NCBI GenBank assembly: GCA_903919925.1 | Contig: CAIXKO010000642.1 | Location: 1-34,722, forward strand | DNA: 34,722 bases | Reading direction: 5' to 3' | Source: an uncultured Bacteroidota bacterium | GTDB taxonomy: Bacteria > Bacteroidota > Bacteroidia > Bacteroidales > UBA12481 | Shown here: piece by piece, positions 8,986 to 27,057 of the stretch | Layout of the letters: each line of letters opens with the position of its first letter | Numbering within the stretch: the first letter of the stretch is position 1 | Notes under the pieces: model-generated | What the model saw: only the letters and a program-made list of their open reading frames with translations | Database searches by the model: none | What the model was told of the DNA's origin: nothing | Program-made: the position numbers and the translations under genes

Positions 8986-9041
8986 TTAATAATCACTTAA
9001 CAGTTTATAAACGAACAGTTAACAGGCGTCATATAGCTTTG
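8986..9041 (+). promoter_or_regulatory. Putative Pho-box-like promoter of EEP gene (11-bp-spaced TTAAYR repeats + -7 TAGCTTTG)
   Basis: TTAATA 8986, TTAACA 8997, TAAACG 9008, TTAACA 9019, then TAGCTTTG 9034-9041 (TAnnTTTG). Confidence 0.5.
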
Positions 9042-9046
9042 CGACT

Positions 9047-10021
9047 ATGAATAAAAACCATTTTTTTACGCACCGCCTAACCTGTTCACTTTTTCTAATC
9101 CTGTTCAATCTGGCTTGGGTGGCTCCGGGATCCAAACTTTTAGGATTTGATATGCCTAATAATCAATTGCATGGGGATGAACCAAAGCCTAATGAATCGC
9201 GGGTCAGGATCCTGTCGTGGAACATAGCCATGCTTCCGGCATTGGATTTAGTTCAATCAGGAGTGGACCGGGCTGAAGGGATTGGCAATGCGTTGTTTCA
9301 GCAGGATTACGATATAATTGTTTTTCAGGAGGCTTTTTCATCAGCTGCCAGGCAAACGATTTATCAGAAATTAAAGGGAATGTATCCATACGCCTTTGGG
9401 CCGGCAAATACCGGCACGTCAATGAAAACCAACAGCGGTGTTTGGATATTAAGCCAGTTGCCCCTGAGGATCATCAAGGAATACAAATACAGCGTTTGTC
9501 AAGGATTTGACTGCCTGGCGAGGAAAGGGGCAATTTTGCTCGAAGGGTCCATCCGTGGACAACAGTTTCAGGTGATTGGCACGCATCTCGAATCGGATGA
9601 CAGCAATTTTGGGGTAAGAGAAGAACAGCTGCATGAACTTTTTGACAGCATCATTTCGCCCTATACAAACCGGGGTATTCCTCAGATTATTTGTGGCGAT
9701 TTCAATATCGACCGTGATCTTCCTGATCAATATGAGAATATGCTGGAGATCCTTCAGTGTGAAGATGGCAATCTTCAGGGAAATGAACGTATTACCTTTG
9801 GTTTCCCACTGAGTGCTGACACAACACTGGCGTTGGAAAAACCGCGGCAGCTGGATTATATCTTTACAAAGAACTCTGGAATTCTGGGCCTTATCAGTCG
9901 TAAGGTGAGCGTAATCAAAGAAACGTTGGTAACAGGAGCCAGGCACCTCTCCGACCATTACGGGATTGAAGCCACCATTCAGTTCAGACTTACCGTACAG
10001 AATTTGGTCAGCCAGCAATAA
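9047..10021 (+). CDS. Secreted endonuclease/exonuclease/phosphatase (EEP) family phosphodiesterase, sphingomyelinase-like
   Basis: Signal peptide; RVRILSWNIAMLP, IIVFQEAF, GTHLESDD, IICGDFNIDRD, QLDYIFT, HLSDHYGIEA motifs of neutral sphingomyelinase/EEP enzymes. Confidence 0.85.
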   Translation: MNKNHFFTHRLTCSLFLILFNLAWVAPGSKLLGFDMPNNQLHGDEPKPNESRVRILSWNIAMLPALDLVQSGVDRAEGIGNALFQQDYDIIVFQEAFSSAARQTIYQKLKGMYPYAFGPANTGTSMKTNSGVWILSQLPLRIIKEYKYSVCQGFDCLARKGAILLEGSIRGQQFQVIGTHLESDDSNFGVREEQLHELFDSIISPYTNRGIPQIICGDFNIDRDLPDQYENMLEILQCEDGNLQGNERITFGFPLSADTTLALEKPRQLDYIFTKNSGILGLISRKVSVIKETLVTGARHLSDHYGIEATIQFRLTVQNLVSQQ

Positions 10022-10023
10022 GG

Positions 10024-10061
10024 CAAAAAAAGTGCCGTGCAGAAAGGCTTCCACACGGCAC
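10024..10061 (-). terminator. Rho-independent terminator downstream of the YwqK-like gene
   Basis: Perfect 8-bp stem GTGCCGTG (10032-10039)/CACGGCAC (10054-10061); A-run on + strand gives U-tract on - strand. Confidence 0.7.
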
Positions 10062-10139
10062 CTGATTGATGATCTCTGCACTAAACTAATCCCTTCGTCT
10101 AAATTGCAGATTCACTTATATATAATTAGATAGATGAGG

Positions 10140-10610
10140 TTATTTTTCGTCTGAGTACCTCTTCTCACTTACCTTATTCCCATTTTCGTCATACATAATC
10201 CAAAGGCCGGCTTTCTGTCCCTTGCGATAAAACATTTCATACCGCAATATGCCCTTTTCATCCCACACCCGCCACAAACCTTCCTTAAGATCAACAGAGT
10301 AACCAGCTTCCCCTGTTTTCAAGCCCAGTTCATTATAAGAAATCCATTGCCCTTCTCTCAAACCATTTTCAAACATGCGGATTTCCCTTATCGTTCCAGT
10401 CCGGTACCAGAGAGTGACCTGGCCGTCCATTTTACCATCGGTGACCAGCATCTGCTGTTTCAACTGGCCATTGTCCCAATACTCGCGATAGTCACCGGAA
10501 AAAAGTTTATGGTCCTTGCCATAATAAAGACCGTCTTCGCCCTGGCTGATCTGGCTGTAACCTGCCAGGAAACAGATCAGGCCAGACACAACCAAAAATG
10601 CTTTTTTCAT
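10140..10610 (-). CDS. YwqK/MORN-variant repeat protein, secreted
   Basis: Signal peptide; repeated YREYWDNGQLKQQ / VTLWYRTGTIREIRMFENGLREGQWISY / GLWRVWDEKGILRYEMFYRKGQKAGLWIMYDENGNKVSEKRY. Confidence 0.85.
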   Translation of the reverse strand: MKKAFLVVSGLICFLAGYSQISQGEDGLYYGKDHKLFSGDYREYWDNGQLKQQMLVTDGKMDGQVTLWYRTGTIREIRMFENGLREGQWISYNELGLKTGEAGYSVDLKEGLWRVWDEKGILRYEMFYRKGQKAGLWIMYDENGNKVSEKRYSDEK

Positions 10611-10627
10611 TTTTTCCGCCCTATTAC

Positions 10628-10978
10628 CTAACGTTTAAGCTCCACTTTAAGAGCGCTCTTCTTGTTTGCACTAACAACCAGGTTCTTAATTTTATTTTCC
10701 TCATAGGAAACAAGTGAAACCTGGAGGTTGTAGTTACCCGGACTAATACCTTGAACTTCAAAGTTACCATCGAGGTCTGTGTAGACAGTCTGGTCCAGAC
10801 CGCTAATCTTAACCTGGGCGCCCGGCAATGTTTCGCCAGTGGATTGATCTACCACAGTCCCACTAAGTACAGTTACCTCGGTGTCCCCTTTAAAGTTCTT
10901 AGACCTATTGTTTTCACCATCGGCAAAAACCGACAGCATTAAAGCTGTCACCAATATCGTTGAAAAAAATTTTTTCAT
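10628..10978 (-). CDS. Stand-alone carboxypeptidase-regulatory-like (CarboxypepD_reg / NTE-like) domain protein, secreted
   Basis: Signal peptide; LSGTVVDQSTGETLPGAQVKISGLDQTVYTDLDGNFEVQGISPGNYNLQVSLVSYEENKIKNL. Confidence 0.88.
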   Translation of the reverse strand: MKKFFSTILVTALMLSVFADGENNRSKNFKGDTEVTVLSGTVVDQSTGETLPGAQVKISGLDQTVYTDLDGNFEVQGISPGNYNLQVSLVSYEENKIKNLVVSANKKSALKVELKR

Positions 10979-25181: not shown

Positions 25182-25241
25182 AGAATTTATATATTAATAT
25201 ACTTGCTTGTAAATACCAGGTAAAATGAAGCGTTGGTTATT

Positions 25242-26042
25242 TCACAATTTTAATTCATCATACCGATAAGAAGCTGAAACAATTTCTTTAATCCTCCTTA
25301 ATTTAGTTTCGCTTTCTGATGAAATAATTCCCATTATTTTTTGAATATGGATGATCTCTTCCGGATCGATTCCTGCCGAAGTTATTACCTGATCTAATTT
25401 CATTGAGATTACATAGGAATCATGCCATCTACCCAGGAGTTCCGGCAATTCAGCCGGCCAATCCAGGGTTGGGTTTTGTACCCCCTTAACAACCAAATCT
25501 TTGTTATAATAATAGCTTTTAAAAAGCTTACGCAGATCATGAATCTGAACGGGTTTTAATTCATACTGAATAAGATGTTTAAAAATTCGGTTTCTTTTTT
25601 CTTTCAAATAGCTATTGACTTTCTTTTTATCTATTTCAGCAAGCATGGGAATTGTTTTATGAATCGATTTTCTCATACGGCCAGTTGCTGATTCATTAAT
25701 AAGTTTATAAAAGGTGGTTCGTTCTTTTGATTTCTGTAGCCTTAAATCTTTCCGATAACCAACGAGCAATGAACTGGTTAAATACTTTTTGAGCAGAGCC
25801 TCTTCAACCTGAATTTCCCTTACCTTACCCGCCTGCCTAAATATTTGTTTAAAGGGCTTGATCGCCTTATTCCTATTGAATCCTTTTAAGCTGAATTCTA
25901 CCAACTCAAAAAATGCATTCAATCGCTTTATTTCGACCCGCAGCTTATGAAAAGCTGCGGGTGTAAAAGATGATGCGGGTTTTTCCAAAATATGTTTAAT
26001 GGCAATTTCCCGGTTTAACAGGTGTTTTTTAAGTCCTTTCAT
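25242..26042 (-). CDS. CHAD domain-containing protein
   Basis: FHKLRVEIKRLNAFFELV...KQIFRQAGKVREIQVEEALLKKYL; LHDLRK-type IHDLRKLFKSYYY. Confidence 0.88.
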   Translation of the reverse strand: MKGLKKHLLNREIAIKHILEKPASSFTPAAFHKLRVEIKRLNAFFELVEFSLKGFNRNKAIKPFKQIFRQAGKVREIQVEEALLKKYLTSSLLVGYRKDLRLQKSKERTTFYKLINESATGRMRKSIHKTIPMLAEIDKKKVNSYLKEKRNRIFKHLIQYELKPVQIHDLRKLFKSYYYNKDLVVKGVQNPTLDWPAELPELLGRWHDSYVISMKLDQVITSAGIDPEEIIHIQKIMGIISSESETKLRRIKEIVSASYRYDELKL

Positions 26043-26160
26043 TCCTGAATATTTCCCTTTGTATGAATTGCCAAACTAATAATACAACTTTCTATAAAAA
26101 ACCTTTGTCTATATTCGATAGGTATGTGGCAAAGTTATGGAACAAATGCAACCTGAATGT

Positions 26161-26188
26161 TAACAGAATATTATCAATAATTCTGTTA
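26161..26188. repeat. Inverted repeat (9-bp arms, 10-bp spacer) upstream of the CHAD gene
   Basis: TAACAGAAT (26161-26169) / ATTCTGTTA (26180-26188). Confidence 0.6.
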
Positions 26189-26315
26189 GATGGCAATACC
26201 GATAATTTCAGTAAAGCTCTGATTTAAAGTGATAATCCAGCTGCTTTTGAAATAGTTAATCTGGAAGGAGTATTGATGGAACACCCATATCGGCCAGATA
26301 TTCGGAATAGAAAAA

Positions 26316-26981
26316 TTACGCCTCCTGATTTGCATGCCTGAGAACTTTGGCCTCGAGAAAATATATGAGCTCCTCTGCTATATTTTTTGTTTGGTCTCCA
26401 ACACGTTCCAGCTTTCGAATCACTGTTAACAGAGATAGGACTGCAAGGGTTTCTTCGGGTTTGCGGATTATAATTTCGTTAGCAGTTTTATTCGATTTCA
26501 TCAGAATTTCATCAAGCAGATTATCTTTTTTAAAAATCTGCCGGGCTTGCTGTGAATCTTGATTTTCGAATGCGGTTGAAATAATTTTTAGCATTTCCAG
26601 CGAAATATCGAACATCCGGCTTATCTGCATTTCTTTCAGAACCTCAGGATCTACCGGATTCTCCAGATCTCGCAAAATGCAGGCGATATTGTATAAATAA
26701 TCGCCAATTCTTTCGAGACTATAATTGGTTCTCAGGATAGATAAAACGAACCTGAGATTATTGGCCACCGGGCTGAAAAGTGCCAGCACATTTTCGCAAT
26801 CCATATTCAGTTTCAGCTCATACACATCAACGCGGCGTTCCAGGCGGGCAATTTCCTCAATGAGATCTTTATCTGTGCTTTCTACTGAGGTCCTGGAATT
26901 TTCAAACTGATGGATAACCAGGCTAAACATGTTGATAATGTTGGTTTTAAGTGAATTTAGTTCGTTTGAAATCGGTGTCAT
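26316..26981 (-). CDS. phoU: PhoU-like phosphate signaling protein
   Basis: IARLERRVDVYELKLNMDCENVLALFSPVANNLRFVLSILRTNYSLERIGDYLYNIACIL...VIRKLERVGDQTKNIAEELIYFLEAK. Confidence 0.92.
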   Translation of the reverse strand: MTPISNELNSLKTNIINMFSLVIHQFENSRTSVESTDKDLIEEIARLERRVDVYELKLNMDCENVLALFSPVANNLRFVLSILRTNYSLERIGDYLYNIACILRDLENPVDPEVLKEMQISRMFDISLEMLKIISTAFENQDSQQARQIFKKDNLLDEILMKSNKTANEIIIRKPEETLAVLSLLTVIRKLERVGDQTKNIAEELIYFLEAKVLRHANQEA

Positions 26982-27001
26982 AATTATGATTATTTTTTTT
27001 T

Positions 27002-27057
27002 TGAAGTTAATCTCTATACCACACTTGCCGGCTAAAAGTGTGTTAAGTTATTGTTAA
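27002..27057 (-). promoter_or_regulatory. Putative Pho box and promoter of phoU
   Basis: - strand: TTAACA-ATAAC-TTAACA (27057-27041), -7-like TAACTTCA (27009-27002). Confidence 0.55.

Follow-up and report, generated by a model that had tools for sequence, protein, structure and literature searches.

OmpR-family regulators commonly use repeats of about 11 bp. The PhoP box of Bacillus subtilis is built of TT(A/T/C)ACA repeats with spacers of about 5 bp, and the Pho boxes of Escherichia coli replace the -35 element and activate transcription. Regulators of the PhoB type occupy direct repeats in a head-to-tail arrangement (PMC4415409). Within the Bacteroidota, purified PhoB of Bacteroides fragilis binds the pstC promoter in an electrophoretic mobility shift assay performed with a 512-bp fragment, pst expression collapses in a phoB mutant and phoB itself is induced at low phosphate (PMC3547664). 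DNA affinity purification sequencing of Riemerella anatipestifer PhoP gave TTTAACA as the core of its motif (PMC9603813), and in the PusCD clusters of Flavobacterium, SusCD pairs stand with phosphonate and phosphatase genes and are induced by phosphate depletion (PMC8115612). We analysed a stretch of 34,722 nucleotides (hereafter the window) from an uncultured Bacteroidota bacterium of the Bacteroidales (UBA12481; GenBank assembly GCA_903919925.1, contig CAIXKO010000642.1), in which several genes are preceded by a repeat element placed at a fixed distance from the -7 promoter element. We are highly confident that this element is a Bacteroidota Pho box and that the genes listed below form a Pho regulon.

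A preliminary description of this DNA had reported, at five promoters, two hexamers starting 48 and 37 bp ahead of a -7 element. Read directly in the window, all five sites have their hexamers and -7 elements at the given coordinates and spacings. The hexamer pairs are thus real, but they are only part of the motif: alignment of six promoters revealed additional half-sites that keep the register, at +22 and +33, among them those at 9019, 11180, 12164 and 11024 below. The complete element has as many as four 11-bp half-sites, arranged head to tail and with the consensus K-T-A-A-Y-A-N5; they start 48, 37, 26 and 15 bp ahead of the -7 element TAnnTTTG, the last one ending 9 bp before it. Ahead of the gene of an EEP-family phosphodiesterase (8986..9041, forward strand, +), TTAATA (8986), TTAACA (8997), TAAACG (9008) and TTAACA (9019) lead to the -7 element TAGCTTTG (9034-9041). 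The CarboxypepD_reg-MORN genes (11002..11057, reverse strand, -) have TTAATG (11057), TTAATA (11046), GTTTTA (11035) and GTAATA (11024) before TACTTTTG (11009-11002), and the divergent response-regulator gene (11158..11213, +) has TTAATG (11158), TTAATA (11169) and GTAACA (11180) before TACATTTG (11206-11213). At the SusCD-phosphonate operon (12142..12197, +), TTTACA (12142), TTAATA (12153) and GTAATA (12164) precede CATTTTTG (12190-12197). A sixth promoter, missed by the preliminary description, lies ahead of the gene of a PHP-glycosyltransferase (8916..8971, -), with TTAACA (8971), TTAATA (8960), TTCTTA (8949) and TTAATC (8938) in phase with a perfect -7 element, TATGTTTG (8923-8916); finding it was a first independent test of the pattern, if a small one. 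The fifth site originally proposed, that of phoU (27002..27057, -), has its two TTAACA hexamers where they were said to be (27057 and 27046), but they are followed by a poor -7-like sequence, TAACTTCA, and the box is weaker than had been implied. The distance from the -7 element to the ATG, said to be 28-31 bp in four of five cases, was measured as 31 (CarboxypepD_reg), 29 (response regulator), 30 (SusCD), 28 (phoU) and 13 bp (EEP), and is 69 bp at the glycosyltransferase promoter. The odd EEP value is explained by a start codon placed further upstream than in a congener (G005).

The specificity of the complete grid was assessed in the bacterium's own genome. The tight pattern TTWAYR-N5-TTAAYA-N31-NANNTT occurred six times in 7.01 Mb, six of six on this 34.7-kb contig, five of them fitting by construction and the sixth (8971, -) being new; the reversed control pattern occurred twice. 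On 372 kb of DNA from elsewhere in this genome, a matrix built from the six promoters had a top score of 14.6. With the promoters omitted one at a time, all but one scored above every background position: EEP 20.9, response regulator and SusCD 23.9 each, glycosyltransferase 24.3 and CarboxypepD_reg-MORN 28.8. The phoU box reached 13.6, a score equalled at two background positions. A matrix scan for pst and pho genes had been proposed beforehand as a check. The porin-pstSCAB-phoU genes of this genome lie on a separate contig (C94), and the best matches of the matrix outside its training set were the promoters of this pst operon, at the porin gene (22.8) and at pstS (17.8). The porin box reads TTAACC-GTAACA-GTAACA-TTTACA, followed by TTCTTTTG as -7 element.

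The same grid was found at pst operons of other Bacteroidota. We located pstB in 78 genomes of the order and took the pst loci from these; in many loci of other families the top match lies directly ahead of porin, pstS or pstC. At 28 order-level pst loci, the mean best upstream score was 13.9 with a period of 11 and a gap of 9, and about 2.6-5.8 with periods of 8-10 and 12-14. For 57 pst loci of named Bacteroidota (GTDB species), a phylogenetically redundant set of mostly Bacteroides in which members are not independent and kinship was ignored, the corresponding mean was 11.5, compared to 2-5. Period 11 was sharply optimal among periods 8 to 14, and a gap of 9 to the -7 element was optimal as well. 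In 36 of the 57 named loci the locus-wide best match fell less than 500 bp upstream of pstC, for about 5% expected. The PhoB-bound pstC promoter of B. fragilis (L159, L162) is the best match of its 9.2-kb locus, with GTAACA, GTAACA, GAAACA, TTCAAA, TTCACA and TTAATA at 11-bp steps and TTTCTTTG as -7 element. Of 16 genomes with a canonical phoB, 7 have a box ahead of this gene at a score above 12, in keeping with the induction of phoB at low phosphate (PMC3547664).

The reverse experiment used an external matrix derived from pst promoters of other genomes only, all same-genus sequences being excluded. It was seeded with a generic half-site composed after the window sites were known, so that the test was not wholly blind. 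Its five best positions in the window were the CarboxypepD_reg-MORN (30.1), EEP (27.6, reached by 0 of 741,698 background positions), response-regulator (22.8), SusCD (22.5) and glycosyltransferase (21.0) boxes, for a background maximum of 15.2; the phoU box was outside its top matches. A probable seventh promoter lies ahead of the CHAD-GH3 genes (26130..26185, -), where ATAATA (26174), TTAACA (26163) and GTTGCA (26152) precede TAACTTTG (26137-26130); its score of 15.5 exceeds all background. No box was found near the CHAD relative of another genome (G017). Two further matches have no gene in position. One, at 26913-26969 (+), inside phoU and on the opposite strand, scored 16.5, over all background, and is perhaps due to chance. 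The other is a pair of half-sites, TTAACA-N5-TTAATA, between the response-regulator gene and the SusCD operon (12050..12066, -), which scored 14.8 and is possibly a distal site. Own and foreign pst promoters, B. fragilis pstC, the phoB promoters and the reverse matrix thus support the earlier proposal of one regulon, probably responding to phosphate limitation, and its genes would very probably be switched on together when phosphate is short.

The products encoded downstream fit such a regulon to different degrees. PhnW, PhnX, PbfA, PhoU and the EEP-family enzyme belong to phosphorus acquisition, PPK1 and PPK2 complete the phosphorus-related gene content together with PhnW, PhnX, PbfA and PhoU, and the CarboxypepD_reg/MORN and glycosyltransferase genes are not diagnostic. 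The EEP-family phosphodiesterase (9047..10021, +) is sphingomyelinase-like, under the cut-off, and the glycosyltransferase (6161..8854, -) has a GT4-type C-terminus. The phosphonate operon (12220..23545, +) encodes a small protein, SusC, SusD, a PHP metallohydrolase, PbfA, a DUF5690 protein, PhnX and PhnW; profile matches of PbfA, PhnX and PhnW exceed the family cut-offs. Its SusCD pair is co-localised with phosphonate genes, as in PusCD clusters, and the box, taken by itself, would predict a phosphate-induced system of the PusCD type. The window phoU (26316..26981, -) is a second copy, the other one being in the pst operon on C94. On the same strand, a CHAD protein and a GH3-like enzyme are encoded at 23634..26042. 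The GH3-like enzyme (23634-25181) is OlsH-related, with 332.6 bits for a cut-off of 620. A role in the synthesis of N-acyl amino acids or ornithine lipids would fit phosphorus-free lipid remodelling; the OlsH study itself doubts such a role in this phylum (PMC12493201). The MORN-repeat and CarboxypepD_reg genes (10140-10978, -; CarboxypepD_reg-like protein 10628..10978) are kept with the response regulator in three congeners, at 79-92% identity, with other neighbours differing.

Conservation within the genus extends to the promoters. The divergent region between the CarboxypepD_reg and response-regulator genes is kept in two congeners (G006 and G001), with boxes and -7 elements in place, and in G005 boxes are retained at the glycosyltransferase promoter (25.4) and, with the spacing unchanged, at the EEP promoter (27.6). 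In G005 (L278, C98) a porin-pstSCAB operon with two boxes of its own lies between EEP and phoU, and is followed by phoU, CHAD and GH3. In the window (4552-31795) the SusCD-phosphonate operon fills this interval and pst is found on C94 with another phoU copy. Because the pst operon stands between EEP and phoU in G005, the window is a rearranged phosphate island.

These results suggest how the box may operate. Under phosphate scarcity, a response regulator of the PhoB type would, once phosphorylated, bind the half-sites as tandem dimers, take the place of the -33 element and recruit RNA polymerase to the -7 element. Half-site 3 lies roughly at what we take to be the place of the Bacteroidota -33 element, therefore the regulator is likely to activate by standing in for that contact, in the manner of E. 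coli Pho promoters. Porin-pstSCAB-phoU on C94, the sphingomyelinase-like phosphodiesterase, the glycosyltransferase, the operon for SusCD-phosphonate uptake and degradation, the small CarboxypepD/MORN pair and the response regulator's own gene would thereby be switched on, and the CHAD-GH3 genes and the window phoU probably belong to the regulon too. The element would work like a Pho box and very probably is one. For this organism, we infer binding and activation, their dependence on phosphate and the acting paralogue from sequence comparison.

In order to identify the regulator, we compared the PhoB-like proteins of the order. The OmpR/PhoB-type regulator of the window (11235..11936, +), whose gene has no adjoining kinase gene, is PhoB-like: it scores 191.7 bits with NF053854, the model of canonical Bacteroides PhoB (cut-off 270), and 185.4 bits with TIGR02154 (cut-off 296.2). 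Under both curated cut-offs, it was rejected as a canonical PhoB, and no protein of its genome passed the NF053854 cut-off in a profile search. A canonical PhoB is present in 16 of the 78 genomes of the order; others have a second PhoB-like group (205-224 bits to NF053854), with a PhoR-like kinase adjoining in 18 loci and a member inside the pst operon in G078. In a tree of 67 regulators, the window regulator and those of three congeners form a clade sister to a regulator encoded on contig C447; the two stand together in a genus clade (100/97) inside the second group. The genome has two paralogous PhoB-like regulators, and the window gene is itself behind a box. The only strong PhoR-like kinase of the genome is encoded on C464 (L274, 9490-10533; 380 bits, next 123). 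Its gene stands alone, without a box, between threonine-dehydratase-like and EF-G-like genes, as named by reading their sequence. In the simplest circuit, this kinase presumably acts on the C447 regulator, on the window regulator or on both, and the window regulator, having its own box, could serve as an amplifier. A C447-type regulator would have to be enough in relatives such as G004, because these keep their pst boxes and it is the only strong match there. In another congener (G007, L062, contig C143), a window-type regulator occupies the place of the C447-type regulator of congeners, with the same upstream gene and TTAATA-ATAATA before TACCTTTG, a position which suggests that the window-type paralogue arose at the C447-type place and later moved.

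A variant that shares the Pho-box assignment makes the window regulator, and not its C447 paralogue, the main binder, as a specialised second PhoB amplifying through its own box. We consider this possible but rather doubtful. Its gene lies amid the regulated promoters, behind a box conserved in three species and lacking at the C447 gene, and the protein is a genus-level paralogue of the group with kinase-linked and pst-operon members. However, relatives without the window paralogue, such as G004, keep the pst box with a C447-type regulator as the only strong match, and G005 has boxes at the glycosyltransferase/EEP genes and at pst, yet only a C447-type regulator among its strong matches. The window regulator also lacks an adjacent kinase gene, and its sequence is more diverged than that of the C447 regulator.

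Several observations weigh against the assignment as a Pho box. The phoU box is a weak one by either matrix. TTAAYR-N5-TTAAYA alone is not enriched genome-wide (41 sites and 65 for the reversed control), therefore the evidence rests on the complete grid and not on TTAAYA pairs; a very loose pattern of a -7 element and two half-sites, too loose for use, showed no enrichment either (21 and 21). Matches above 15 are lacking at about half of the pst loci, so that the box is not universal or its register varies, and the named pst set is redundant as described above. PbfA loci in four other class-level genomes have neither a SusCD-phosphonate operon nor a box. Finally, two loci elsewhere in the genome, C58:10639-10684 (L047) and C408:4983-5028 (L051), carry three half-sites, TTAAC[T/A]-TTAACC-TTAACG, before a good -7 element and about 1 bp off the Pho-box phase. 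The genes are those of two paralogous secreted proteins to which no function is assigned; they are possibly regulon members or targets of another regulator, and repeats like these, almost in phase with the Pho box, may serve other regulators. On that basis the repeats could belong to another OmpR-family regulator, ArcA-like and concerned with stress or redox, whose targets overlap only partially with phosphate genes, and repeats of 11 bp would suit such a protein. An ArcA-like character was noted for the motif of R. anatipestifer PhoP (PMC9603813), and the C58 and C408 promoters have no obvious phosphate function. We nevertheless judge this improbable, as the best independent matches stand at the promoters of phoB and of pst, the latter both in this genome and in others. 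Repression instead of activation, suggested by the overlap of the site with the expected -33 position, is more improbable still, E. coli Pho boxes at the equivalent position being activating. We rejected it, since expression of B. fragilis pstC, whose box has the same position, depends on PhoB (PMC3547664). Chance in AT-rich intergenic DNA, a concern for a motif found by eye whose two-hexamer form is not enriched, has a negligible probability and is refuted for five of the six main sites by the leave-one-out, external-model, spacing-grid and footprint tests.

A broader proposal, on which we are evenly divided, is that of a phylum-wide class of Pho promoters served by two regulator lineages, the canonical PhoB in Bacteroides-like families and the second, kinase-linked PhoB-like lineage elsewhere, the latter having been duplicated in this genus to yield an orphan paralogue under the control of a box. 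A difference between the lineages may lie in the first base of the half-site, G or T: in an exploratory comparison that ignored kinship (pst loci L097-L126), the G:T ratio was 22:8 with canonical PhoB and 23:40 without (p about 0.002). With a strictly phased consensus, phosphate regulons of Bacteroidota from gut and soil can be predicted, SusCD systems for organic phosphorus among them, and it becomes directly testable which regulator replaces canonical PhoB. We found no defined Pho-box consensus or phasing for Bacteroidota in the searched open-access library, which leaves most subscription journals outside and is no proof of absence.

Compared with known systems, the element has a half-site very similar to that of the B. 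subtilis PhoP box and the same 11-bp period, in another phylum, with another promoter class and another regulator. It differs from the E. coli Pho box by its half-site, K-T-A-A-Y-A instead of a CTGTCATA-like unit, by the number of half-sites, up to four here and six in B. fragilis pstC, and by its phasing to the Bacteroidota -7 element TAnnTTTG and not to a -10 element. As in the E. coli box of two 11-nt direct repeats (PMC4415409), head-to-tail 11-nt repeats, predicted to serve a PhoB-type regulator, stand just upstream of a core promoter element, with phosphate genes downstream. The pstC promoter targeted by PhoB in B. fragilis has the same box as the best match of its locus; the text of that study defines no box sequence (PMC3547664), and the PhoB used there is presumably canonical, a type absent from the present genome. 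The PhoP motif of R. anatipestifer, also a member of the Bacteroidota with a Pho-type regulator, has the same core, a likeness that covers the core only and not repeat number or phasing (PMC9603813). Flavobacterium PusCD clusters likewise associate SusCD with phosphonate genes, in a study whose text describes no promoter element (PMC8115612), and in comparison with them the gene content of PbfA, PhnX, PhnW and DUF5690 is particular to the window operon.

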